From NCBI RefSeq assembly GCF_002975405.1, contig NZ_PCPS01000003.1, positions 310,001 to 374,000 of the forward strand: a stretch of 64,000 nucleotides of DNA. The letters run 5' to 3'. Under the pieces are notes generated by a model. It saw only the letters and a program-made list of their open reading frames with translations. It had not been told where the DNA came from and ran no database searches. Numbering within the stretch: position 1 is the first letter of the stretch; every line of letters begins with the position of its first letter. The DNA is from Arthrobacter sp. MYb229. GTDB lineage: Bacteria; Actinomycetota; Actinomycetes; Actinomycetales; Micrococcaceae. The position numbers and the translations under genes are program-made. This document shows positions 45,004-57,775 of the stretch, piece after piece.

Positions 45004-46656
45004 TTAATCGGATTGTGATGCCTGCGCCGCGGCGGCCCGCGCGTTCGCGACCAGTATTTCTTCCATATATGGTGCCCGAACGTTCGGTGAGATCCGCGCA
45101 TCCACCAGACATATTCCCTTCGCCCCTTGATCTACCCACTGCCGAACCTTGGAAAAATCGGCCAGCGAGTCGATGCGAATGCCCGTTGCGCCCACCGCGG
45201 TGGCGAGTGCCGCGAAGTCGACCGTTGGGATGAGCATTGGATCCTCGTGCAGGCCAATGGATCCGTATTGGTGGACCTCCGCTCCGTAGGCTGAGTCGTT
45301 GTGGATCACGATGACTCCGCTGCTGATGGTGCGCACGATCGATTCGAGATCGGCTAGGCCCATCAGGAATCCGCCGTCTCCGGCGGCTAGCACTACGGTG
45401 CGGCCTTCGGCCGCTGCCCCCGCGCCGACCATGGATGCAATGCCTAAGCCAATGGACTGATAAGCAGTGCCTACGCAGGTCAGCGATCGCGCCCCGGAGG
45501 TTGACCAGTACATGGGCCCCCAACCGATGAAGTGCCCGCCGTCCTGAACCAGCACCCGGTTCTGGGGCAAGATCTCTTCCAGTTCGCTGGCCACTCGACG
45601 CGGATCGAGCAGACCGTCCGCGGCGCGCTCCTCCCCCCGCGGGCGGTCGCGGACCGAGCCCAGGTTTATCGAGCCGGCCCATCCCGAATCTTGGGCGCCC
45701 ACGGTGCCCAGGAGACCTTTAACCGCGGCGGCGACGTCTCCGGTGGCGAAGTAATCCACTCGCGGACTCGTGGCGCTGGCCGCAAGATCGATCTGCACTA
45801 CCTGTGCTCCGACGTTGACCAGCTCCCCGAAGCGCATGGTGAACTGATTAAGTCCGGCCCCGAGCACCAGCACGGTATCGGCCTGTTCGATGATTTCGGC
45901 GTTTCGTTCGGTGGCGAAGCCACCGGTGATTCCCAGATCGTACGGGTAGTCCAACAGGTCGCGGGCCAGCAGGGTTCCCGAGGTGGTGGCTCCTAGCCGT
46001 TCGGCAAGTTCGGCAATACCCGCTGCCGCGTCGATGGCTCCACGACCATAGAGGATGTGCGGGCGTTTGGCGGCCAAAAGCAGGTCGGTGATGGCCCGTA
46101 GTTGAGTTGCATTGAGTTCAGGCGCCGGAGGAACACTGCGGAAGCTGTTGAACTCGGGCAGTTCAACTTCGAGGCTTGGGGCCGCAGCGAGGTCGTAGGG
46201 GATGGACAGAACCACCGGGATCTGTTCGCGCAGCGCGTGGGCGGCCGCGGCGAGAGCCGTTGCGCCCGGGGTGTGCCGGTCCACCTCGTAGCGCACGGCC
46301 CGCACACCGGAGTCGATGGCGGCCTGGTCAACGTCCCAACCGCGCAAACCGGTCGTCGGCGCATCGCCGGTGACTAACAGCATCGGAGTGCGCGCCGCCG
46401 CAGCCTCGGCCAAGGCGGTGACGGCGTTGGTATAACCTGCGCCGTACGTGGTCGAGGCGATAGCGAGGCGGTTTGAAATCCTGAAGTAGGCATCGGCGGC
46501 GGACACCGTTGCGGACTCGTGGCGCACGGCGGTGTAGCTAAAGCCTGCGCGAACGGCGGCATCGAGGAAGTGTGCGTTGCCGTTGCCCATCAGACCAAAG
46601 ATCTGTGGAGCAATCGGCTTAAGGGCATGGGCGATGGCAGCTGAAACGCTGGACAT
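45004..46656 (-). CDS. Thiamine diphosphate-dependent enzyme, acetolactate synthase/decarboxylase type
   Basis: A 550-residue three-domain ThDP enzyme. The activating Glu47 lies in AVRHESATVSAADAYFR, a middle domain carries ILYGRGA and the LVLGAGLNQF loop, and the ThDP motif starts AAGDGGFLMGLADLESIV and ends VIHNDSAYG. It may be an acetolactate-synthase-like lyase or a 2-oxo acid decarboxylase. It lies just downstream of the amine-oxidase gene on the same strand but behind a hairpin and has AGGAAAAG upstream of ATG 46656, so it is probably a separate transcript. Confidence 0.85.
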   Translation of the reverse strand: MSSVSAAIAHALKPIAPQIFGLMGNGNAHFLDAAVRAGFSYTAVRHESATVSAADAYFRISNRLAIASTTYGAGYTNAVTALAEAAAARTPMLLVTGDAPTTGLRGWDVDQAAIDSGVRAVRYEVDRHTPGATALAAAAHALREQIPVVLSIPYDLAAAPSLEVELPEFNSFRSVPPAPELNATQLRAITDLLLAAKRPHILYGRGAIDAAAGIAELAERLGATTSGTLLARDLLDYPYDLGITGGFATERNAEIIEQADTVLVLGAGLNQFTMRFGELVNVGAQVVQIDLAASATSPRVDYFATGDVAAAVKGLLGTVGAQDSGWAGSINLGSVRDRPRGEERAADGLLDPRRVASELEEILPQNRVLVQDGGHFIGWGPMYWSTSGARSLTCVGTAYQSIGLGIASMVGAGAAAEGRTVVLAAGDGGFLMGLADLESIVRTISSGVIVIHNDSAYGAEVHQYGSIGLHEDPMLIPTVDFAALATAVGATGIRIDSLADFSKVRQWVDQGAKGICLVDARISPNVRAPYMEEILVANARAAAAQASQSD

Positions 46657-46850
46657 AATGGACTCTTTTCCTGAAGAAAACTAAAGAAAATTCCATATAT
46701 GTCTGCCGTTACCAGTTGCTTTCGGCAACGGGTATCGCCCCTTTTGAGAGCGCCGGAGCCTTATGAGGCGGCTCCTGACAGGAATCAGCATAGGCCATGC
46801 CACACCGATTGCGCTAGCTGGAGCCGGGCGTTGCCACGAGGTGGGACACC

Positions 46851-46883
46851 GAGCGCCCGGGGACGATTCATCCCCGGGCGCTC
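46851..46883 (-). terminator. Hairpin after the flavin amine oxidase gene
   Basis: A 13-base perfect stem (arms GAGCGCCCGGGGA and TCCCCGGGCGCTC) with a seven-base loop, four bases after the stop codon. It has no U-run, so termination may be partial. Confidence 0.6.
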
Positions 46884-46886
46884 GAA

Positions 46887-48626
46887 TCAGGAAACCAGTT
46901 CGTCCGCGTCTTTCAGCTTCATCGGCCCCAGCTCGTCAAGGAACTGGCCCGGGCCAGGATTTTGCGCGGCATCCTGGCCGCCGAGGTGCTGGAGCACACC
47001 CCAAACGGCGTTCAGCCCTGTGGTCACCGCGCCCTCGGCCCACCCCGCAGTCCACGACACGTCATCACCAGCCAGGAAGATCCCGCGGTGTTCGGCGGGC
47101 AGCTCCCGCTGGTCGAAGTGCGTATACAGGCGTTCCTGGTACCGGTAGTGCCCGGGCAGGTTTGCCTTGAATGCACCCATGAAGTTCGGGTCTGCCTCCC
47201 ATGAAACCGTAATCGGTTGACCCACGATGTGGCTTCGGATGTCCAGCTTCGGGTAGATCTTCTCCAGCGAATGAAGCATGAGTTCCATGCGGCGTTCGGC
47301 AGGCAGCGACAGCCACTTCAGCGCGTCGTCATTCCAGGTGTAGGAGAGCAAAATGACCGCCGGCTGGCCCTCGCCGTTATCCAAGAGGTAGGTGGCACGA
47401 TTCAACCGGTCGGTGAGCGTCATGGACATCAGGTACTCGCCGGTGACTGGATCGCGGTCTTTCCAGAACGGACGATCTACCATGACGAAGGTCTTGGATG
47501 ACTGCATATAATGGCTCCGCTCGATAGCGGTCCACAGTTCTGCCGGGAATAGCCCCTCTTCGATTTTGATACCGGTGGACAGCAGCCAGGACTGCACCGT
47601 GGAGACCACCGCGCCGAAGGTGCGGCTGCTGCCGAAGCGCTCGGTCACCTCGATCGCTTGGGCGCCGCCGAAACCCTTCCGTTGCGAGCGCCGAATCTCG
47701 GCCACGGCCCCGCGCGGCGCGCCACCATGCAGCGAGGCCAGCGAGGTGCCCGCAGGCCAGTGGGCCAGCTCCTGTGGCCCGTGGTTCCACAGGGCATGCG
47801 GGAGTTTCGCGGCGCCGCCGCTCAGACCCCGGTGGTTGTCATCGGCATCCGTGTACACCACACGAAGAATTTCCAGGATGGAGTTCGGAAAGTCGGTATC
47901 CCAGCCACCGGAGCCGAAGCCGACTTGGCCGAAGGCCTCGCGATGCTCAAAGCCGGCTTCCTTGAAGGCCCGGGAATTCGCGATGAATCCATAGAAGCTT
48001 TCCTCGTCATATTCGTCGAGCAGATCATTCCAGATGCTTTTGATCTTTGCGGTATCGCGGGCTTTGATGGCCTGCTGCATCTGCACGAACTGGGCATCAT
48101 CCTGCAGGGCACGCTTCCACGCCTCGGCCACTTCACGGTAGAAGACCGGCAGGTCGTCCGGGTCTTCCACATAGATCTTCTGGCCCTTGAGCTCTATGAC
48201 GGTTGAACCGGTTGGCTCCGCCAGCGGGTTCGGGAAATCGAAGGTTTCCAGCCCCAGCTCGTCGATGTAGTGGAATAGCGCCTTGCTGGACACCGGGAAG
48301 CGCATCCCTCCAAGGTCGCAGGTGATCTGCGGTGCTGCCTGGAAACTGGCGGTGCGCAGCCGGCCTCCAATTTCGTCCGCTTCGAAGATCACTGGCTTGA
48401 GCCCCATCTTCATCAGCTCATACGCGGTGACCAAACCCGACAATCCGGCGCCAATGACGGCCACCTCGGTGCCGTAGAGCTCCGCCGGCACGCTTCCCAG
48501 GCCGTCGGGGTGCGCCAGAAAGAGGTCGTAGCCGAACGGAAAGTCCGGATTGAGCATATTGATGCTGCCATCGGTCTGTGGCGCGGTGCCGGAAGATGAG
48601 GTAGCTGCGGTCTCAAAAGTGCTCAT
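46887..48626 (-). CDS. Flavin monoamine/amino-acid oxidase (L-amino acid oxidase/tryptophan 2-monooxygenase-like)
   Basis: A 579-residue FAD protein of the amine-oxidase superfamily. The Rossmann motif begins VAVIGAGLSGLVTAYELMK (about residue 54) and ends FEADEIGGRLRT; a long insertion (about 150-260) and the C-terminal FAD block FLAGDDVSWTAGWAEGAVTTG follow. Length and the DLGGMRFP motif fit L-amino acid oxidases and tryptophan/phenylalanine 2-monooxygenases, which give either the 2-oxo acid or the amide. Its context is an APC permease upstream in the same operon and a nearby nitrilase-type amidase. Confidence 0.87.
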   Translation of the reverse strand: MSTFETAATSSSGTAPQTDGSINMLNPDFPFGYDLFLAHPDGLGSVPAELYGTEVAVIGAGLSGLVTAYELMKMGLKPVIFEADEIGGRLRTASFQAAPQITCDLGGMRFPVSSKALFHYIDELGLETFDFPNPLAEPTGSTVIELKGQKIYVEDPDDLPVFYREVAEAWKRALQDDAQFVQMQQAIKARDTAKIKSIWNDLLDEYDEESFYGFIANSRAFKEAGFEHREAFGQVGFGSGGWDTDFPNSILEILRVVYTDADDNHRGLSGGAAKLPHALWNHGPQELAHWPAGTSLASLHGGAPRGAVAEIRRSQRKGFGGAQAIEVTERFGSSRTFGAVVSTVQSWLLSTGIKIEEGLFPAELWTAIERSHYMQSSKTFVMVDRPFWKDRDPVTGEYLMSMTLTDRLNRATYLLDNGEGQPAVILLSYTWNDDALKWLSLPAERRMELMLHSLEKIYPKLDIRSHIVGQPITVSWEADPNFMGAFKANLPGHYRYQERLYTHFDQRELPAEHRGIFLAGDDVSWTAGWAEGAVTTGLNAVWGVLQHLGGQDAAQNPGPGQFLDELGPMKLKDADELVS

Positions 48627-48683
48627 GGGAGTGTCCTGCGTTTCCTTTGGTTCGTGCCATTAGTTGGAGTATAGGGAAAATTG

Positions 48684-50165
48684 CTACTGTTCGCCGATGT
48701 GGCTGGCGATGTATTCTTTCTTGGATAATTGGCCCAGCCGGGAGCGGCTGCGCCCGTAGCCCAGGTAGATGCCGATGCCTGCAAGCATCCAGATGCCGAA
48801 GACGAACCAGGTGTCAGGTCCGAGCTGGCTCATCAGGAACACGCAGGCGGCAACGCCGAGGATCGGGGTTAGCGGGTAGAAGGGCACCCGGAAGGTCCGC
48901 GGCGCCAGCGGCTGCCTGCGACGCAGATACATCACCGAGACGCCCACCAGCGCAAAGGCGAAGAGCGTACCGATACTGGTGGCATCCGCCAGCGCACCGA
49001 GGGGAATGAAGCCGGCGGTGGCCGCGACCAGGAAGCCGGTAATGAGGGTTCCGCGGACCGGCGTTCCGGTACGCGAAGAGATCTCGCCGAAGGTCTTGGG
49101 AATCAGTCCGTCACGGGACATCGACAGCAGAATCCTGGTTTGCCCGTAGAGCACCGTGAGCACCACGGAGGCTATGGCCAGCACCGCGGCGACCGCGAAG
49201 AGCAGCACTAGCCAAGGCTGGCCGGTTACTTCACCGATGATCTGCACGAGCGCCGCTTCGGTTCCCTCGAACCAGTTCCATTCGCGTGCGCCAATAGCGG
49301 AGACGGCTACCAGCACATAGGTGATGGTGACGATCAGCATGGACCACAGGATGGCGCGCGGCATGTCGCGTTTGGGATTTACCGCTTCCTCTCCGGCCGT
49401 GGACGCCGCATCGAATCCGATGTAGGAGAAGAACACCGTCGAAGCGGCCGCGGTCACTCCGGCGGCGCCCATCGGCAGGAGCGGTTCGAAATTTCCTGCG
49501 TTGAACGCGCTGAATGCCACCGCGCAGAAGAGCAGCAGGATGCTGGCCTTGATGATGACAACCACCGTGTTGACCCAGGCGGATTCCTTGGCGCCGCGCA
49601 CCAGCAGCAGCGTCGCCAGCACCACGACGATCAGTGCAGGCAGGTTTGCCACGCCGCCCTCGGCCGGTCCGCCAGCCAGCGCGGTGGGCAGTTCCAGGCC
49701 GAAGGCCCGCAGCGTCTCGTTCACGTATTCACCGGCGCCGACTGCCACCGCGGCTACCGAGACCGCGTATTCGAGCACGAGGCACCATCCGCAGATCCAG
49801 GCGATGCCTTCGCCCATGGTCGCATAGGAATACGAATAGCTCGATCCGGCCACCGGGACCATGCCCGCCATCTCGGCGTAGGAGACCGCCGAGAGCAGAG
49901 CCGTCACGCCGGCAATCACGAAGGAGATCCAGATGGCCGGGCCGGCGATCGGCACGGTGGCACCGAGGATCACCAGTATGCCGGTACCCATGGTCGCACC
50001 GATGCTGATCATGGTCAGTTGGACCACGCCGAGCGAACGGCGCAGCTGGCCATGTCCCGAATTCGTCTCCGCTTCCCGAAGCATGCTGCTGATCGACTTG
50101 CGTCGGCGCAGCTGCGGCCCGAGGGCAGTGCTTGGCCGATCAATCGTTTCGAGGGTGCTGTTCAT
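48684..50165 (-). CDS. APC-family amino-acid/amine permease
   Basis: A 493-residue membrane transporter of the amino acid-polyamine-organocation family with about 12 hydrophobic segments. LTMISIGATMGTGILVI (first helix), SSYSYSYATMGEGIAWICGW, FFSYIGFDAASTAGEEAVNPKRD in two blocks and a C-terminal charged tail are typical. It starts the unit with the amine oxidase gene (57 bases apart) and is divergent from PucR, so it probably imports the oxidase substrate. Confidence 0.88.
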   Translation of the reverse strand: MNSTLETIDRPSTALGPQLRRRKSISSMLREAETNSGHGQLRRSLGVVQLTMISIGATMGTGILVILGATVPIAGPAIWISFVIAGVTALLSAVSYAEMAGMVPVAGSSYSYSYATMGEGIAWICGWCLVLEYAVSVAAVAVGAGEYVNETLRAFGLELPTALAGGPAEGGVANLPALIVVVLATLLLVRGAKESAWVNTVVVIIKASILLLFCAVAFSAFNAGNFEPLLPMGAAGVTAAASTVFFSYIGFDAASTAGEEAVNPKRDMPRAILWSMLIVTITYVLVAVSAIGAREWNWFEGTEAALVQIIGEVTGQPWLVLLFAVAAVLAIASVVLTVLYGQTRILLSMSRDGLIPKTFGEISSRTGTPVRGTLITGFLVAATAGFIPLGALADATSIGTLFAFALVGVSVMYLRRRQPLAPRTFRVPFYPLTPILGVAACVFLMSQLGPDTWFVFGIWMLAGIGIYLGYGRSRSRLGQLSKKEYIASHIGEQ

Positions 50166-50242
50166 GCTGAAACCTCACTGGGGAGAAATTTTCTGTCGAA
50201 CTCAACCCTATGGCTGTGAGTCACATCTCAGGGGAGGCGTTT

Positions 50243-50265
50243 TTGAACTAATATTATTGAACATG
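50243..50265 (+). promoter_or_regulatory. Candidate leaderless promoter of the PucR gene with TTGAAC repeats
   Basis: TTGAAC occurs at 50243-50248 and 50257-50262; between them is TAATAT, a good -10 element, placing the transcription start at or near ATG 50263. The only purine-rich block (GGGGAGG at 50231-50237) is too far to act as a ribosome-binding site. The repeats may also bind a regulator. Confidence 0.45.
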
Positions 50266-51873
50266 GGACAAAATGCACCTAATGGGCAAGCGCCTGGATC
50301 GACTCGAAACTTCACGGCGCTCCCCGGAAATACGATGAGCATGGGCCGTTTCCTCAGCCAGCTGCCGGGCGAGGTGAGAGTGGTCCACGACTCCGGGGAT
50401 CTCCCCCTGCGCTGGGTCGAACCCAGCGATATGGATGACCCAACCGATTATCTGCTGGATAACGAATTGATTCTCACCAGCGGATTTCCCCTAGTCGGCG
50501 TCGAAGAAGACCAGCAGAAGGTGGATGAGTTCATTCACCGGCTTTCCGAAGCGAAGGTCAGCGCCCTGGGTTTCGGACTGGAACCCTATTTCACCGAGAT
50601 CCCGAAAACGGTAATTCGAGCCTGCAAGCGCTTTAATCTGACGCTGTGGGAGATACCGGCCAGCCTTCCCTTCGCCGCGGTGGGCATCGCCTTTTCCAAG
50701 CTCCTGGAAGCCGACGGTGCGGCCCTGCTGCGCAATAATGCGGAAGCGAACCGTGCGCTCATCCGCTGCGTCTCGGATCGAAACCCCGAACAGCAGCTCG
50801 TGGCGACGCTTTCGCAGCGTGCCCAGTGCACGGTCCGCCTCTTCGGCAGCACCCTGCGGCTGCGCTATTCTGCCTGCGCTCCGGACGGCCCCACGCTCTC
50901 CTCCGAAGTAACTGAACTGCTGTACGAGCAGGCCACACAGTCCGACGGCAGCCAACAATTTGCGCTGCTTCAGGACTCGACGGGCACGCATCTTGGATTC
51001 CCGATTCGCGCGGTGGCCCCCGGGCGCCGCCAGGCGGCGTTGCTGGGCGTCCTGCAGGCAAGCTTTGCGCAGACCCCCACGGCCGTGGAGCATAATCTGG
51101 TGGCTACCGCGCTCGGATTGCTGGAAGTCGTGGCTAGGCAGAAGGTCTCAGGTTCGTTCGCCCCGACGCAGCTTGCAAGCAGCCTGCTGCTGGGATCGCG
51201 TAGCGCACTCGATGAGCAGCAGCTGCGACTGCTGATCCAGAGCACCGGTGGTGCGCAACGCCAGATCCGTGTGGCCGCCATCGCCCAGCAGAGTCCGGAT
51301 CCCGAATCCAATTTCGCCCACCACATCACCACATTGCGTTCCTTGCTGGAAACAAGGCTGGTGTCCTCCTCCGGCGAACAGCTCCTGGCACTTACGCAAG
51401 CGGCCCCGAACCCGCACCTGTTCAAACGGCTCGAAGACGCAGGTTACCTGGCCGCATTCAGCCACCCAGCAGCGGTGGACGAGCGAGCTGGTTCTTCACT
51501 TGGGGATCTGGCGATCCAGGCCAAGGCCCTGCTCCCTCGAATTCTCGAAGAACGCCGGAGCCTGGACGCGGCACAATTGCCGCGCACCTTCGCGTCGCTG
51601 CTTCCGCAGGAAGCGAGCATGCAGTTGGCAGAGCAGCGGCTTGCCGGGGTCTTGGCCCTCCCGGCTGCGCGTCGAGATCTGTATTTGGCGGTACTGCGGG
51701 CGTGGTTGGGCGCCAATGGCTCGTGGGATCTGACGGCCAGCACCGTCAGCTTGCACCGGAACTCGGTGCGTCGGCATATCGGCACGATTGGCGAACTGCT
51801 GCACGTGGACCTCACCGAGGCCACGATTCGGATGGAGCTGCTGCTGGCGTTGTCGTTTATCAAGACCAGTTAG
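50263..51873 (+). CDS. PucR-family transcriptional activator
   Basis: A 536-residue regulator. The N-terminal PucR purine-catabolism-type sensor covers about residues 30-150 (GEVRVVHDSGDLPLRWVEPS, then LILTSGFPL); a GGDEF-like central part follows, and the C-terminal HTH_30 reads LRAWLGANGSWDLTAS, then TVSLHRNSVRRHIG. PucR proteins control uptake and breakdown genes of nitrogen compounds. It is divergent from the permease-oxidase unit and converges with the nitrilase gene (four-base overlap), so both may be its targets. Confidence 0.87.
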   Translation: MGQNAPNGQAPGSTRNFTALPGNTMSMGRFLSQLPGEVRVVHDSGDLPLRWVEPSDMDDPTDYLLDNELILTSGFPLVGVEEDQQKVDEFIHRLSEAKVSALGFGLEPYFTEIPKTVIRACKRFNLTLWEIPASLPFAAVGIAFSKLLEADGAALLRNNAEANRALIRCVSDRNPEQQLVATLSQRAQCTVRLFGSTLRLRYSACAPDGPTLSSEVTELLYEQATQSDGSQQFALLQDSTGTHLGFPIRAVAPGRRQAALLGVLQASFAQTPTAVEHNLVATALGLLEVVARQKVSGSFAPTQLASSLLLGSRSALDEQQLRLLIQSTGGAQRQIRVAAIAQQSPDPESNFAHHITTLRSLLETRLVSSSGEQLLALTQAAPNPHLFKRLEDAGYLAAFSHPAAVDERAGSSLGDLAIQAKALLPRILEERRSLDAAQLPRTFASLLPQEASMQLAEQRLAGVLALPAARRDLYLAVLRAWLGANGSWDLTASTVSLHRNSVRRHIGTIGELLHVDLTEATIRMELLLALSFIKTS

Positions 51874-52670
51874 GGGCGCTCCTGAGCCCACTGTCGGTAC
51901 AGGTCAGGTCTCGAGGCGTTCAAATACGGGACCCGGGCTTGCGCCTCGGCAATATGCCGCGGCTTGATATCAGCAAAGAGCAGCTCCGGTTCGGTCCCGC
52001 CACCGGCCAGCAGCTCACCGTCCGGTCCTGCAATGACGCTGGTCCCGGCCAGGGCAAATCCATTCTGCGTTCCGGTGTGGTTTGCGTAAGCCACATACAA
52101 CTGGTTTTCCATGGCCCTTGCGGGCACCAAGGTGGTGCACACCCGCTCATAGCCCACCCCCAAGGCAGTGGGCACCAGCAAGAGCTGAACGCCGCGGACG
52201 GCTGCTTCGCGGACCACTTCCGGGAACTCGATGTCGAAGCAGATGGCCAGCCCAAGCCGTATCCCGCGGTAGTCGAGCACCGTGGCTGCCAAAGATCCCG
52301 GAACAAAAGCTTGCAGTTCTTCAGTGCCGAATAAGTGCACCTTCACGTAGTTCGCCAGCATCTTCCCGGAATCATCAACGAAGGTCGAGGTGATGTGCCA
52401 TCCGGTGTCGCCGCGCTGCGGCAACGAATAAAGCAGCGCAATCTTGTGCTTCGCCGCGATCTGCGCAAGCCGTTCAACCACCGAAGGAAGCACCGATTCT
52501 TCAAGGCCGGCACGGAGCAACTTGGGTGCATAGCCCACGGTGAAAAGCTCCGGGGTTAGCAGGATACTTGCTCCTCCGGAGGAGGCGCGGGCCGCGGCAT
52601 CCTCAAGCAAGGCGAGGTTGGACTCAATATTCAGCACCGTTGCCTCGGCTTGCAGCACCGCGATCCGCAT
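51870..52670 (-). CDS. Carbon-nitrogen hydrolase (nitrilase superfamily amidase)
   Basis: A 266-residue amidase of the nitrilase superfamily. The catalytic triad is Glu41 (LLTPELF), Lys110 (YVKVHLFG) and Cys144 (GLAICFDIEFPE). Length fits aliphatic or omega-type amidases. Gene position suggests it hydrolyses an amide formed in the neighbouring oxidase pathway, but a direct substrate cannot be read. AGGGAG lies a few bases before ATG 52670. The reading frame ends inside the PucR gene. Confidence 0.87.
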   Translation of the reverse strand: MRIAVLQAEATVLNIESNLALLEDAAARASSGGASILLTPELFTVGYAPKLLRAGLEESVLPSVVERLAQIAAKHKIALLYSLPQRGDTGWHITSTFVDDSGKMLANYVKVHLFGTEELQAFVPGSLAATVLDYRGIRLGLAICFDIEFPEVVREAAVRGVQLLLVPTALGVGYERVCTTLVPARAMENQLYVAYANHTGTQNGFALAGTSVIAGPDGELLAGGGTEPELLFADIKPRHIAEAQARVPYLNASRPDLYRQWAQERP

Positions 52671-53702
52671 TCGATTCTCCCTAGTCTCCGTATGTGATTA
52701 CAGACTACGTGCTGGCCACCGAGGAATCGCAGGGGTGAATAGCACCGAGAAGGTGGTATTCAGGATAATTTGAACCGCTACTCATGCCCATGGAGCGGGC
52801 TGATGCCATTTGGGGAGCCTTTCGAACCAGGGAATTTTCCATGATTGCCCACCGCTTCAGGCGGTTTGCCGCAAATGGCAACCCGAATTTACATGCAGCC
52901 AGAGCAGTATTACGTGGCACCCGGCAAGCAAATGACCGGGACTCGTGCCGCGCATCGAACCAGCGCCGGATTGTTCCGACCGGCCCGCATTGCGGTCAGG
53001 ACGCAATTGCCGCAAGTCGCCTGCGACGCCAGCGAAGGGCGAGCCCAGATTTCAGGGCTTCCCCTTGAAATCCGGCGCATCGACGGTCCTCGTTTTCGCA
53101 CGGTAATTTGTTCCGCCTAGTGAATTAATTGTAGGAGCCGGCCGTCAGCTTTGATCATTTCGTGGAAGACATTTCACCCTGAGTGAGCCCGGGCCGATAT
53201 GCCTCTATATATATTCCAAAACAAGAATGTGTTATTTGACCTGATCATACAGGTTTTTCACACTTGTTCACCTTGCTCAGATTCGTACGAACGCCACCAT
53301 TTCGCTTGCCGATGCAGCGGCTAGCTGGCTAAAATCGTTGTAGCTAGAAGTTTCAAGTTGTTGCGGTGTCGTTAGTTCTGGTAGATCGATTAACGTCGTC
53401 TCCAGCCCATTCTCGCATAGGTGGCCAGCGCCCCAGCATCTGCATTATTTTGGGGGCAAATGCTGGGTAGCCACGGAAGCTTTCTGTTTCCTCCCGCGAG
53501 GGTCGAATACTCGAGCGCCTTCGAAATCTGCGAAGGCGCTCGACCTATTTGCCGCTGGCGCCGAACTCTTGTGTTACCACGGATGGCAGAGGGCGATCTC
53601 TGCGGGCAGAAGGGGCCTCGTGTTGTTGCGTCATATTTAGGAATAACCTACCCACTAGCGTTTCTGCTCTAGGGTTTGAGGTGAGCCCCGACTCGTGTAC
53701 TT
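52671..53702. other. Gene-poor stretch with several hairpins
   Basis: No credible gene is visible over about 1 kb. Structures seen: tandem hairpins near 52848-52882; a nested inverted repeat at 53220-53268 (AACAAG/CTTGTT, GTG/CAC, ACCTG/CAGGT); an imperfect CCCAGCAT/ATGCTGGG hairpin near 53433-53470; and a perfect 13-base stem at 53511-53543. No riboswitch class could be recognised. Confidence 0.5.
53511..53543. terminator. Hairpin upstream of the CynX-type transporter
   Basis: Perfect arms TCGAGCGCCTTCG/CGAAGGCGCTCGA with a seven-base loop, followed by CCTATTT. It lies 172 bases before the transporter start and may be a terminator or attenuator. Confidence 0.5.
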
Positions 53703-53714
53703 AAGGAGATCGCC

Positions 53715-54944
53715 ACGCATCGCAACCCAGCCAAGAAGAATTGGGCCTTGCTCTGGGTCATCGCCGGAATCGCCATTTTGGCGCTGAGCCTGCGTGCGCC
53801 GATCATCTCACCCACCGCGGTCATGGCCGACATCCAATCCGACACCGGGCTCAGCGCCGCCGGAGCCGGATTGCTCACGGGTCTGCCGGTTTTACTTTTC
53901 GCCATCGCGACGCCTCTGGCAACCGGCACCATACGCCGTTTCGGCGCCGAGGCCACCGTCATCTTGTGCTTGGTCGGCGTGCTGGTCGGGACGATAATCC
54001 GCTCGCTGGGCTCTGCCCCGCTCCTGCTGGCTGGCACGGTGCTGATCGGCGCGGCGATAACCTTGGGAAACATCGTAGTTCCGGTCATCATTCGCCGCGA
54101 CGTGCCGTGGCGGCGGGCCCCGGTGGCGACGGGCGTGTATTCCGCGGCCATGAATGTCGGTTCCATGGTGACCTTGCTCGGGACCGCCCCGCTCGCGGCC
54201 GCTTTCGGCTGGCGCATCGCGATCGCCGGATGGACGGTTGTCACCGCCTTGGGGCTGGTTTTCTGGCTGCTGCTTCTCCGGATGCGCCGCGCGGGCGCCA
54301 CGTCCGCCGAGTTGCCGGACGAGCCTGCTCCCAAACGACCCACGACCGAAGCCGACGCCGCGATGCTGGTTGCCGCGAGATCCCGGAACCGCAAGGTGAC
54401 CGCCCTGCTGGTCTTCGGTTTCTGCGGCCAATCCGCCGCCTACTACGCGACCACCACCTGGCTTCCGTTGCTGCTGGCCGAAACCGCGGGGCTTTCCCTT
54501 GCTTCCTCGGCCGCTAGCGCTTCGCTGTTCCAGATCGCCGCGGTGGTGGGCGCCTTGGGCGTTCCGCTGCTGGCCGCCCGCACCGGCCCCTGGGTTCCGG
54601 CGCTCGTCGTAGCCATCTGCTGGATTGCACTGCCCTTGGGATTGCTGGCCGCACCAGAGGCCTACATTGCATTCTCGGTGATCGGCGGAGTCGCCCAGGG
54701 TGGAGGGTTCACCGCGATCTTCTCGCTTATCCCGCGGATCACCAGCACAAATGCGCAGGCGGCCTCCGCCTCCGCTCGAATCCAGGGCGGAGGCTATGTC
54801 GCGGCTACCATCGCTCCGCCGTTGGCCGGGTGGCTCAATACCACCACCGGGGGCTGGGACGCACCGCTGGCTCTGGTGCTGGCCGCAACCCTGGTCTTCG
54901 CCATCGGCACCTTGTCCGCGGTCCGCCTCGTCGCGCGCGGCTAA
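53715..54944 (+). CDS. CynX/NimT-type MFS transporter with an apparent ACG start
   Basis: A 409-residue MFS permease with about 12 hydrophobic segments. WVIAGIAILALSLRAPIISP is the first helix and GFCGQSAAYYATTTWLPLLL marks the second half, typical of the CynX/NimT group (cyanate or nitroimidazole transport; the substrate here is unknown). The only frame-matching start with a good ribosome-binding site is ACG 53715, six bases after AAGGAG. The next in-frame start, TTG 53748, has no such site and removes a basic N-terminal tail. The stop overlaps the convergent D-lactate dehydrogenase gene by four bases. Confidence 0.8.
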   Translation, partial: THRNPAKKNWALLWVIAGIAILALSLRAPIISPTAVMADIQSDTGLSAAGAGLLTGLPVLLFAIATPLATGTIRRFGAEATVILCLVGVLVGTIIRSLGSAPLLLAGTVLIGAAITLGNIVVPVIIRRDVPWRRAPVATGVYSAAMNVGSMVTLLGTAPLAAAFGWRIAIAGWTVVTALGLVFWLLLLRMRRAGATSAELPDEPAPKRPTTEADAAMLVAARSRNRKVTALLVFGFCGQSAAYYATTTWLPLLLAETAGLSLASSAASASLFQIAAVVGALGVPLLAARTGPWVPALVVAICWIALPLGLLAAPEAYIAFSVIGGVAQGGGFTAIFSLIPRITSTNAQAASASARIQGGGYVAATIAPPLAGWLNTTTGGWDAPLALVLAATLVFAIGTLSAVRLVARG

Positions 54945-57775
54945 GCGGTCCCGGTGCCTTGCGCCAGCAGTTCAATTACATGGCGGTAGTCCTTGCCGGT
55001 AGCCCGGCTCATGCCCAGCTCGCAGGTGCGGTTGCACGAGGCGTGGGCGCTGGCGTCCAGCTCGCGCACCTCGGCGGCTTCGCGTGCGGTGGCCGAGGCG
55101 GTTAGCTCCGGGTGCAGCATGCCGCGGTCTCCGGCAAAGGCGCAGCAACCCCAATTCACCGGAACGTGCACGGTTTCCGCGACCGCTTCGGCGACCTGCT
55201 GCAGATCACCGTTCAGGCCCATCTGCGTTGACGAACAGGTGGGGTGCAGGGTCAGCGAATCGACCCGCTTGGCTTGCGGGAGCTTGTCCAGCAGGTGCCG
55301 CGAGGTGAAGGCCAGCAGGTCGACTACCTCAAAGCCGTGCTCTTCCAAGGTATGCGCGAAGCCCTCGGTGCAGCTGGTTGCATCGGAAATTACCGGTAGC
55401 CTAAACGCCGGCTGGGCGGCGTGGACTTGATCGAGCACGCGTTGGGCCATCACCGCATGCCCGTCCTCGTAGCCCTTCGAGCTCCATGGGGTACCGCAGC
55501 ACATCGATTCGATGCCTTCCGGAACCAGCACCGAAATGCCTGCCTGCTGCAGCAGCTGTTCGAAGGCCGGAGCCACCCCCTGCCCTTCGCCGCCAGGGCC
55601 GAACATCGAGTTCACGCAGGCAGGCAGGTAGATGGCGCTTGGCTCGGTACCCGCGGCACCAAGATTTCCCGTCAGCGGCTTGCGCGCCTTGCCGCCGGCC
55701 GGCAGATCTGCGTCATAGCGCGGCATGGTGTCGTTGCCCACGACCTTGCGGGCCACGTCGGTGGCGCCACGGACCAGCGACGCCGGGAACTTGTCTGCAA
55801 CGCTCAACGCCACCGAGCCGACGCGAGTTGCCGCGCCCCAGCCCTTGGCCGCGGCCTTGAACCCGGCCGCCATCGCCGGGTTCGCATCCTCGCGGCGCAG
55901 ACGCTTGACCAGCAGGCCGGTATTGATCTGCACCGGGCAGGCGGTGACGCACATGCCGTCCACCGCGCAGGTCTCCACCGCGGAGTATGCGAAGTCGCGC
56001 TCGAGCTCTGCGGCGAGCTCCTGGTTGCCTTCGGCCTCGGCCTTGGCGATCGCGCGGCGCACTGCGATGCGCTGGCGTGGGGTCAGCGTCAGGTCCTTGG
56101 ATGGGCAGACGGGCTCGCAGTAACCGCACTCAACGCAGCGGTCGGCTTCAACCTCGATGGTCTCGTTCAGCTTGATGTTGCGGATGTGGGCTGCGTGGTC
56201 TTCATCGATGATGACCCCCGGGTTGAGCATCAGCCGTGGGTCGCAGGCAGCCTTGAGCTGAACCATGACTTCGTAGAGCTCATCGCCGTACTGGCGTCGG
56301 ACGAAGGGTGCCATGGCGCGCCCGGTGCCGTGCTCGGCCTTCAGGTTGCCGCCCTTGGAGAGCACCAGGTCGACCATCTTGTCGTTAAAGGCGTTGTAGC
56401 GGTTCAACGCGCTCTCGCCCTCGAAGCGGTCGGTGAGCATGAAGTGGATATTTCCATCCTTGGCGTGGCCGAAGATCACCGAATCTTCATACTCGTACTC
56501 GTCGAAGAGCTCCTGCAGGCTTCCGCAGGTTTCGGCCAACGAGGCAACGGGCACCGCAACGTCTTCGAGCAACGCGGTAGTTCCCGAAACGCGTGCGCCA
56601 GCCACCGACGCATAGAGTCCCTTGCGGAACTTCCACGCGGCCTGGCGGTTCACCGCGTCGGCCGAAAGCACGGCCGGGGCGCGAAGCGACGCCGCGTCCA
56701 GCAGGCGCTGCCCATCACCTTGCAGCCCGGCAAGCTCCTCGTCCGAGTCCGCATGGTACTCCACGAGCAGGGCTGCTTGGGCGTTGACTTCGAAGCCCAT
56801 AATTGCCTCGGGCACCCCGGGCAGGCTCTGGCCCACGCGCAGCGAGGTGGAGTCCATGAGCTCCAGAGTCGCCGCGCCCGAGTCCAGCAAATCCGGTAGC
56901 GCGCGAGTTGCCAGATCCAAGGAATCAAAGACCGCCAGGGTGGCGATCGCGAGCTTGCGAATCGGCACGGTCCGGAAGACCGCCTCGGCGACAAAAGCCA
57001 AGGTGCCCTCGGAACCGATAATCAGGTGCGCGAGCAGATCCGCCGGCGTCTGGTGGTCCAAGAAGGAATTGATGCCGTAGCCCATGGTGTTCTTCAGGGC
57101 AAAGTGCTTTTCGATCAGCGCCACGGAATCCTTATTTCCGCGCACGCGGTCCCGCAAGCGCTCGAGGGTGGCGACAAGTTCCGGCTCGGCAGCGGCCAGT
57201 TTGGCATCGGCATCCGGGGCAGCGGTGTCGATCATGGTGCCGCTGGGAAGCACAAAGGTCATCGATTCCAGCGTGCGGTAGGTGTTGAACTCGGTACCGC
57301 ATGCCATGCCCGACGAGTTGTTGGCGATCACGCCGCCAATGGTGCAGGCCGCCTCGCTGGCCGGGTCTGGCCCAAGCTTGAAGCCGTATGCCGAGAGCCG
57401 CGCATTGACCTGACGCACCGTCGCGCCGGGCTGCACACGCACGCGCTTGCCCTGATCAAGCACCGTGATGCCGCGGAAGTTTCGACGCACGTCGAGCATC
57501 AACCCGTCACCGCTCGCCTGGCCGGCGAGCGAGGTGCCGCCGGAGCGAAGCGTTACCGGCTGGCCGGCGCGCATGCTGGCCGCAAGAAGCTGCGAAACCT
57601 CGACTGCGTCCTTGGCGATGATCACCGCCTGCGGGGTGTAGAGGTAGTGCGAAGCGTCGGAGGCGTATGCCACCCGGTCGATTGACGTGGTTTTGACGCG
57701 GTCGGGCTCGGCGACCAAGTCAAGGATGCTCGGCGAAACCTTGGTTTCGCCGAGTGCCGGCGTGCTCAATGCCAT
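54941..57775 (-). CDS. FAD-linked D-2-hydroxyacid dehydrogenase with 4Fe-4S and CCG domains (D-lactate dehydrogenase type)
   Basis: A 944-residue flavoprotein. N-terminal FAD-binding half: LRSGGTSLAGQASGDGLMLD, then GGVIANNSSGMACGT; a FAD-oxidase C domain with FGHAKDGNIHFM and LKAEHGTGRAM; ferredoxin-like Cys clusters CVECGYCEPVCPS and CAVDGMCVTACPV; and a C-terminal heterodisulfide-reductase-like CCG part with CCGTPW, TCSSTQM and GCCAFAGDRG. This fits quinone-linked D-lactate dehydrogenases; D-2-hydroxyglutarate is an alternative. AGGAG lies seven bases before ATG 57775. Divergent from the GntR regulator. Confidence 0.88.
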   Translation of the reverse strand: MALSTPALGETKVSPSILDLVAEPDRVKTTSIDRVAYASDASHYLYTPQAVIIAKDAVEVSQLLAASMRAGQPVTLRSGGTSLAGQASGDGLMLDVRRNFRGITVLDQGKRVRVQPGATVRQVNARLSAYGFKLGPDPASEAACTIGGVIANNSSGMACGTEFNTYRTLESMTFVLPSGTMIDTAAPDADAKLAAAEPELVATLERLRDRVRGNKDSVALIEKHFALKNTMGYGINSFLDHQTPADLLAHLIIGSEGTLAFVAEAVFRTVPIRKLAIATLAVFDSLDLATRALPDLLDSGAATLELMDSTSLRVGQSLPGVPEAIMGFEVNAQAALLVEYHADSDEELAGLQGDGQRLLDAASLRAPAVLSADAVNRQAAWKFRKGLYASVAGARVSGTTALLEDVAVPVASLAETCGSLQELFDEYEYEDSVIFGHAKDGNIHFMLTDRFEGESALNRYNAFNDKMVDLVLSKGGNLKAEHGTGRAMAPFVRRQYGDELYEVMVQLKAACDPRLMLNPGVIIDEDHAAHIRNIKLNETIEVEADRCVECGYCEPVCPSKDLTLTPRQRIAVRRAIAKAEAEGNQELAAELERDFAYSAVETCAVDGMCVTACPVQINTGLLVKRLRREDANPAMAAGFKAAAKGWGAATRVGSVALSVADKFPASLVRGATDVARKVVGNDTMPRYDADLPAGGKARKPLTGNLGAAGTEPSAIYLPACVNSMFGPGGEGQGVAPAFEQLLQQAGISVLVPEGIESMCCGTPWSSKGYEDGHAVMAQRVLDQVHAAQPAFRLPVISDATSCTEGFAHTLEEHGFEVVDLLAFTSRHLLDKLPQAKRVDSLTLHPTCSSTQMGLNGDLQQVAEAVAETVHVPVNWGCCAFAGDRGMLHPELTASATAREAAEVRELDASAHASCNRTCELGMSRATGKDYRHVIELLAQGTGTA

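Follow-up and report, generated by a model that had tools for sequence, protein, structure and literature searches.

Arginine 2-monooxygenase is familiar from older biochemistry of Streptomyces and Arthrobacter/Brevibacterium. Pathways in which a flavin 2-monooxygenase is followed by an amidase are described, in the accessible portions of the respective reports, for lysine as the DavB/DavA pathway (PMC4980613, PMC5054628) and for arginine in azalomycin/marginolactone Streptomyces, which have an arginine monooxygenase and a 4-guanidinobutyramide hydrolase (PMC5082578, PMC10322714). A third system, the arginine oxidase/dehydrogenase pathway, is described in the available text of PMC2242806 as proceeding via 2-ketoarginine and ending in 4-guanidinobutyrate, GABA and urea, and another arginine oxidase family is treated in what is accessible of PMC8405998 and PMC10694123.

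The window examined here (the whole stretch of DNA that was analysed, 64,000 nt in length) contains at 46887-52670 the genes for a FAD amino acid oxidase/monooxygenase (OX), an APC-superfamily permease, a PucR-type regulator and a nitrilase-superfamily amidase (NIT), which together probably form a catabolic module, linked to PucR, that acts on a basic amino acid; L-arginine is the most likely substrate. The module has the same enzyme order as DavB/DavA, although the 3WE0-like oxidase-amidase pairs fall in clades of their own for both enzymes. The two proposed steps are also those of the marginolactone Streptomyces, as compared by description; those systems activate the acid as a polyketide starter, whereas the context in the window looks catabolic. 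The arginine oxidase/dehydrogenase pathway would converge with the proposed route, but via the 2-oxo acid and without an amidase step. The chemistry is known, for lysine from DavB/DavA and for arginine from Streptomyces, so that in this respect the suggestion of the preliminary description that the module may be undescribed is not supported. No description of a PucR-linked arginine monooxygenase cluster in the family was found in the literature searched, which consisted mostly of sources outside subscription journals.

Gene content and conservation of the locus

The clustering of five genes reported in the preliminary description was verified, with all five open reading frames present at their places in the window and the Pfam family assignment holding for each. 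Four are encoded on the minus strand, namely a ThDP-dependent enzyme (45004-46656; TPP_enzyme N, M and C domains), OX (46887-48626; Amino_oxidase, 176 bits), the permease (48684-50165; AA_permease_2, with an AA_permease_C domain) and NIT (51870-52670; CN_hydrolase). The regulator (50263-51873, plus strand), which is divergent from the permease gene, has both a PucR domain and a C-terminal HTH_30 domain, as found in a Pfam search of 50251-51873; its start is likely the ATG at 50263 rather than that of the longer mechanical frame from 49933, judging from the sequence and the lengths of relatives. The permease gene is located upstream of OX, a position beside OX that is conserved, and its product scores 494 bits against the NCBIfam BcaP model and 287 bits against the cationic amino acid family, both values being under the respective cut-offs, so that no assignment of the permease to arginine follows. 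The module is judged to comprise OX, the permease, PucR and NIT, with the ThDP gene outside it.

Among the 71 stretches taken from related genomes (60 non-DavB-like and 11 DavB-like), 46 contain all four genes together and 68 contain OX with NIT. Since the four-gene arrangement is seen again so often, the clustering is beyond chance; the synteny past this strain that the preliminary description had suggested looking for therefore exists, and its view of oxidase, permease, PucR and amidase as a conserved catabolic module stands. OX and NIT occupy the same 13 of 18 genomes of the genus. At the level of the family, OX relatives are present in 76 of 245 sampled genomes, and NIT (threshold E<=1e-45) was detected in 74 of the 76 OX-positive versus 18 of the 169 OX-negative genomes, these being raw counts uncorrected for relatedness. 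PucR is absent from the vicinity of OX in 12 of the 60 non-DavB-like stretches, and neither the window-type permease nor PucR was seen near the 3WE0-like class (0/11 stretches).

Relatives of OX, with either class counted, are found in 286 of 295 sampled Streptomyces, among which second copies occur; PMC5082578, on the other hand, states that S. lividans has no arginine monooxygenase, a contrast that counts against the arginine reading of OX. Plasmid records with OX relatives number 159, of which 137 are from Agrobacterium or Rhizobium; within the 30 plasmid matches listed, 73% is reached by one Arthrobacter plasmid, 52-56% by ten others and 30-33% by the remainder. Relatives carry a gene of ~480 residues between PucR and NIT, for which no convincing remnant was detected in the window.

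Oxidase and amidase classes and the probable substrate

The best PDB sequence match of OX is 3we0 (756 bits, residues 21-573, full-length homology), the DavB-type enzyme of Pseudomonas sp. AIU 813 (3WE0, 5YB6-5YB8; EC 1.4.3.2 / 1.13.12.2), a Lys/Orn/Arg oxidase/monooxygenase to which it is 58% identical. Identity to tryptophan 2-monooxygenase (4IV9), which has the superfamily and reaction type in common but lacks the Asp and Trp for a basic side chain, is 33%. No NCBIfam model was at or over its cut-off for OX. On alignment, OX residues R109, W242, D245, A261 and H265 correspond to R102, W235, D238, C254 and Q258 of 3WE0, and Y429, W431, F486, G528 and W529 to Y416, W418, F473, A515 and W516, such that both enzymes have the same Arg/Tyr/Trp/Phe/Asp cage. 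The basic-side-chain pocket is kept in OX (D245 and W242), with the Asp found in 68 and the Trp in all 69 aligned sequences, 3WE0 and the window included. In the accessible text of PMC5832979, these two residues of 3WE0 bind the side chains of Lys, Orn and Arg, and the Trp/Phe 2-monooxygenases have Phe at 235 and Val/Leu at 238, and so are without them; OX, with W and D, does not carry this mark. Because the pocket is kept, and because identity is so much greater to 3WE0 than to 4IV9, the substrate of OX appears to be basic, which disfavours an aromatic one. The activity of 3WE0 on all three basic amino acids means that the Asp alone does not single out arginine.

Two classes of OX can be distinguished at 3WE0 positions 254, 258 and 515, DavB-like (C/F/Y, Q, A) and window class (A, H, G). 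All three positions of 3WE0 are replaced jointly in OX, C254 by A, Q258 by H and A515 by G; Cys254 is regarded as the oxidase/monooxygenase switch. In the OX tree a 13-sequence clade containing 3WE0 (support 1.0) leaves out the window OX; the root via 4IV9 is weak (0.488), and for this reason only the class split is used, not which class is older. Loci L069, L070, L080 and L084 belong to the window class by residue reading, as do 37/37 Streptomyces, Amycolatopsis and Nocardioides loci among L180-L217 (L191, from Pseudomonas, is not counted).

A nitrilase-family amidase accompanies the 3WE0 class as it does the window class. For NIT the best PDB match is the amidase 5jqn/3hkx, and its Glu-Lys-Cys triad (E41, K110, C144) is conserved among 143 aligned homologues, with K110 and C144 in all and E41 in 142 (one gap). 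In the tree of these 143 sequences, the amidases from the 12 DavB-like loci group into a single clade (support 0.971) that contains no other member, and the amidase split matches the OX class split. Of the two branches put forward in the preliminary description, that of a 2-monooxygenase with an amidase is the better supported.

On these grounds OX is probably an L-arginine 2-monooxygenase and NIT probably a 4-guanidinobutyramide amidase. Arginine imported by the permease would be oxidatively decarboxylated by OX to 4-guanidinobutyramide, probably accompanied by some 2-oxo acid plus hydrogen peroxide as by-products. NIT would then hydrolyse the amide, releasing ammonia and 4-guanidinobutyrate. 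From the latter, a guanidinobutyrase-type ureohydrolase encoded elsewhere in the genome could produce urea and GABA, and a GABA transaminase, also encoded elsewhere, could convert the GABA to succinate semialdehyde.

It seems unlikely that the module instead accepts Arg, Orn and Lys with no marked preference among these basic amino acids. The monooxygenase activity of 3WE0 does have kcat/Km values of 74 (Lys), 200 (Orn) and 24 (Arg) per s per mM in the available text of PMC5832979, but the residues fixed in each class, and the division of the amidases into separate clades, point to specialisation. It is a little less likely still that the module is of the DavB/DavA type, converting lysine via 5-aminovaleramide to 5-aminovalerate, despite the close identity of OX to the lysine-active 3WE0, the shared Asp/Trp, and the presence of an oxidase and nitrilase-family amidase layout in Pseudomonas typographi (L191) also. 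The 3WE0-like enzymes are in a separate clade with their own amidases, and three genomes (G033, G149, G163) hold OX of both classes, one each. Furthermore, guanidinobutyrase-type ureohydrolases, which are useless for lysine, are seen near the window class only (10/60 non-DavB-like versus 0/11 DavB-like stretches), a weak difference that is not significant (Fisher p 0.34). The separate clades and the ureohydrolase placement disfavour lysine as the main substrate. One DavB-like stretch (L109) has a GABA-transaminase-type gene and a glutaryl-CoA dehydrogenase gene near OX, which fit the lysine route since it needs such genes; the dehydrogenase is near OX in only this 1/11 of the DavB-like stretches.

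Downstream steps, the ThDP gene and control elements

With respect to the later steps of the proposed arginine route, a ureohydrolase gene of the guanidinobutyrase type also adjoins OX in L176 (Haloechinothrix) and L178 (Kineococcus), and in L088 the genes for the ureohydrolase, OX, permease, PucR, NIT and a class-III aminotransferase form a single run, which by its predicted functions would be a complete arginine-to-GABA gene set. The guanidinobutyrase-type gene of the window genome (G000:C20:48811-49884) has guanidinobutyrase 3NIO as its best PDB match, only 8 bits ahead of guanidinopropionase, and its NCBIfam label is agmatinase; none of the four PF00491 genes of this genome attains the NCBIfam arginase cut-off. 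A GABA transaminase over cut-off is encoded in the same genome. Within the genus the guanidinobutyrase-type ureohydrolase is core (18/18 genomes) and hence is not coupled to OX there; a genus-level link between the two was sought and not found. A separate ThDP-decarboxylase-like gene, distinct from that at 45004-46656, adjoins the guanidinobutyrase-type gene on C20, a contig other than that of the window.

If the assignment to arginine is true, an arginine nitrogen route is indicated in these actinobacteria, the three-residue mark and matched amidase clade would separate arginine-type from lysine-type enzymes in annotation, and candidate suppliers of the 4-guanidinobutyrate starter for arginine-derived polyketides would be named. 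A considerably more speculative extension is that of a genetically undescribed, PucR-controlled arginine 2-monooxygenase regulon, widespread in the family, its class told by A, H, G as against C, Q, A, and perhaps two-branched; in that version the amide would go to NIT, and the 2-oxo acid by-product may go to a 2-ketoarginine-decarboxylase-like ThDP enzyme on C20.

The ThDP gene at 45004-46656, included in the module by the preliminary description, is probably a neighbour and not a member, since it is found in 18/18 genus genomes whether OX is present (13/18) or not, including five without OX and NIT. It is very improbable that OX yields mainly a 2-oxo acid that is decarboxylated by this enzyme, even though the two genes are adjacent in the window, the ThDP gene is within about 19 kb of OX, on its downstream side, in nine of the 13 genomes of the genus that have OX (counting that of the window), and a minor oxidase activity is on record for 3WE0 (O/M ratio about 0.2, PMC5832979). 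In the other four (G002, G003, G005, G012) the ThDP gene is distant or on another contig, it occurs in 3/71 stretches around OX with one or two genes intervening, direct contact among these stretches is seen in the window only, and the enzyme scores 149 bits against the 5-guanidino-2-oxopentanoate decarboxylase model (cut-off 500). The wider neighbourhood is shared in the genus, and a hairpin lies between the two genes. Least credible of all is the aromatic amino acid route offered as an example in the preliminary description, with a Trp/Phe 2-monooxygenase and amidase, for which the common superfamily and the glycine at 515, reported also for the Trp and Phe enzymes in the available text of PMC5832979, are outweighed by the retained W235 and D238 equivalents and the 33% versus 58% identity.

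The hairpin (46849-46885, minus strand), just past the OX stop codon, has a fold of -36.4 kcal/mol (z -6.8) and is possibly a transcription terminator, although it is without a T-run and absent from the output of the consensus terminator scan; an RNA-family scan of the window returned tRNAs only. In the gap between permease and PucR, a footprint at 50215-50250 (strand unassigned), tgtga-N6-tctca followed by ttgaacta, has core columns identical in all 15 gaps aligned (the window, 12 genus loci, L065 and L066) and is a candidate operator and/or promoter element, and PucR would probably activate the permease-oxidase unit. An operator common to this gap and the NIT upstream region was considered and dropped, as the footprint is not seen in the 12 NIT upstream regions aligned; these have another common repeat, about ggtgc-aaa.

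Gene content and conservation of the module

All five open frames named in the preliminary description were found at the positions and in the families claimed for them, namely a flavin oxidase/monooxygenase (OX; 46887-48626, minus strand), an APC permease (48684-50165, minus strand), a PucR regulator (ending at 51873, plus strand), a nitrilase-family amidase (NIT; 51870-52670, minus strand) and a ThDP enzyme (45004-46656, minus strand). The start codon of PucR is most likely the ATG at 50263, the mechanical frame opening further upstream within the permease gene, and the PucR and amidase genes are convergent with a 4-base overlap (51870-51873). OX was searched for in 18 genomes of the genus and 245 of the family, revealing full-length relatives in 13 and 76 of these, respectively, the latter spread over 18 of 32 genera. 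The surroundings of OX copies besides that of the window were read as 71 stretches, mostly of ~20 kb, covering all 13 genus places and 58 of the 68 other family places. The expected co-occurrence in Micrococcaceae was borne out for four genes, OX, APC, PucR and NIT being found together in 46 stretches; OX is accompanied by NIT in 68, and by APC and PucR in 48. Within the genus, NIT is present in exactly the 13 OX-positive genomes and was not found in the five without OX. At E<=1e-45, NIT is present in 74/76 OX-positive family genomes versus 18/169 OX-negative ones (raw counts, kinship being ignored), and in the two OX-positive exceptions (genomes G121 and G205) a weaker NIT adjoins OX.

The ThDP enzyme, previously proposed as a further member, is probably not part of the module. 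Its gene is present in 18/18 genus genomes with at least 72% identity, including the five that lack OX and NIT, and falls inside only three of the 71 stretches, where one or two other genes separate it from OX. Since match places put it no more than ~19 kb from OX, on the downstream side, in nine of the 13 OX-positive genus genomes, it is an old neighbour; in the remaining four (G002, G003, G005 and G012) it is distant or on another contig. The enzyme scored 149 bits against the 5-guanidino-2-oxopentanoate decarboxylase model (cut-off 500), and no NCBIfam model reached its cut-off among the 25 of 52 listed. A 17-pair hairpin (46849-46885; -36.4 kcal/mol, z -6.8) separates the ThDP gene from OX, directly 3' of the OX stop codon; a T-run is lacking, and the consensus terminator scan does not list this hairpin.

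The gap between the permease and PucR genes contains a footprint (50215-50250; tgtga-N6-tctca plus ttgaacta) that is identical in 15/15 aligned gaps and is, on this conservation, a candidate operator/promoter. Because the region 5' of NIT carries a different conserved repeat, NIT may be controlled otherwise. At nine genus loci (L035-L043) PucR and NIT are separated by a gene of ~480 residues; it is absent from the window, where a search for a remnant gave nothing convincing. Another ~1 kb of the window (52681-53745) holds no convincing gene, and blastn against the loci compared matched it in the window's own genome only. Beyond it, 54941-57775 encodes an FAD-linked oxidase/Fe-S protein with weak, below-cut-off likeness to D-2-hydroxyglutarate dehydrogenase, and its gene is also found just past NIT in seven genus loci (L037-L043).

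The substrate pocket and two oxidase classes

The best solved relative of OX by sequence search is the Pseudomonas sp. AIU 813 enzyme 3WE0, an L-amino acid oxidase/monooxygenase (756 bits), followed by the tryptophan 2-monooxygenase 4IV9 (185 bits). In 3WE0, Lys, Orn and Arg are bound through their charged end by Asp238, in a pocket lined by Trp235; the Trp and Phe enzymes have Val/Leu in place of the former residue and Phe in place of the latter (PMC5832979). The window OX retains both, as D245 and W242, and also the equivalents of Arg102, Tyr416, Trp418, Phe473 and Trp516, which points to a basic L-amino acid as substrate; its A515G change is common to the Trp and Phe enzymes. The aromatic substrate offered earlier as an example is disfavoured by this pocket and by identities, within one alignment, of 58% to 3WE0 versus 33% to 4IV9.

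Residues at positions 254, 258 and 515 (3WE0 numbering) divide the 71 stretches into 59 of the window class (A-H-G), 11 resembling 3WE0 (C/F/Y-Q-A; QA) and one odd locus, L045. In a tree of 150 OX sequences, duplicates included and 4IV9 serving as outgroup, 135 sequences read WDAHG at positions 235, 238, 254, 258 and 515, and 13 end in QA (the 11 stretches, Pseudomonas typographi L191 and 3WE0), the others being L045 and 4IV9. The QA set forms a clade with support of 1.0; the position of the root is uncertain (0.488). Three genomes (G033, G149 and G163) have one OX of each class. Amidases of the 12 QA loci likewise form a separate clade among 143 (support 0.971), indicating parallel divergence of the two enzymes, a pattern to be expected if NIT takes the amide made by OX as its substrate. 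None of the 11 QA stretches was found to carry window-type APC or PucR, and PucR was not found in 12/60 non-QA stretches. The divergent OX of L045 (9179-11708; a second copy in genome G015) reads WNAQG, with Asn in place of the basic-pocket Asp, and perhaps acts on a different side chain; it adjoins its own nitrilase-family gene, and G015 has the normal module too.

The case for arginine

The OX/APC/PucR/NIT module is predicted to work like an arginine 2-monooxygenase pathway. A guanidinobutyrase-type ureohydrolase lies within 10/60 non-QA versus 0/11 QA stretches, a difference not significant alone (Fisher p 0.34), and outside the family a gene of this type adjoins OX at the Haloechinothrix locus L176 and the Kineococcus locus L178. 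Locus L088 carries, in a single run, ureohydrolase, OX, APC, PucR, NIT and a class-III aminotransferase with 62% identity to a TIGR00700 GABA transaminase, an arrangement that would match a route from arginine via the amide, 4-guanidinobutyrate and GABA to succinate semialdehyde. At QA locus L109, two genes by OX, one of GABA-transaminase type that exceeds the TIGR00700 cut-off and one for a glutaryl-CoA dehydrogenase (3sf6, 508 bits), form the pair that a lysine/5-aminovalerate/glutarate route would need; neither had a match of >40% identity in the other 10 QA stretches.

The window genome has a GABA transaminase above cut-off and four PF00491 genes, two reaching the formimidoylglutamase cut-off, two that of agmatinase and none that of arginase. 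One, on contig C20 (48811-49884), shares 58-67% identity with 9/10 members of the near-OX ureohydrolase cluster in relatives, and its solved matches rank guanidinobutyrase 3NIO (269 bits) above guanidinopropionase (261) and agmatinases (<=212). Since this gene is core in the genus (18/18 genomes), it serves more than the OX module. It is directly followed by a ThDP enzyme (the pair spanning C20:48811-51557; L128:8312-11061), also in 18/18 genus genomes, a relative of 5-guanidino-2-oxopentanoate decarboxylase that scores 332 bits against a cut-off of 500; the pair is a possible 2-ketoarginine branch.

Known pathways and wider distribution

The module was initially thought possibly undescribed, and no description of a PucR-linked cluster of the OX/APC/NIT type was found in the literature searched. 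The two-step chemistry, however, is known already, for lysine as DavB/DavA (PMC4980613, PMC5054628) and for arginine as the monooxygenase and 4-guanidinobutyramide hydrolase that supply azalomycin-type starters (PMC5082578, PMC10322714); an arginine oxidase gene has also been characterised, as mentioned in PMC4737276. Among the best 80 named records with OX relatives, NIT is near OX in 74, and OX occurs with APC and PucR in 34. Loci of Streptomyces, Amycolatopsis and Nocardioides are all of the window class (37/37), with NIT adjoining OX and APC nearby in many, and 15 Streptomyces loci share a small gene that looks like an Lrp/AsnC-type regulator. OX relatives were detected at E<=1e-100 in 286 of 295 sampled Streptomyces, nine being without; a passage of PMC5082578 reports arginine monooxygenase to be absent from the S. 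lividans genome, which possibly contradicts this occurrence.
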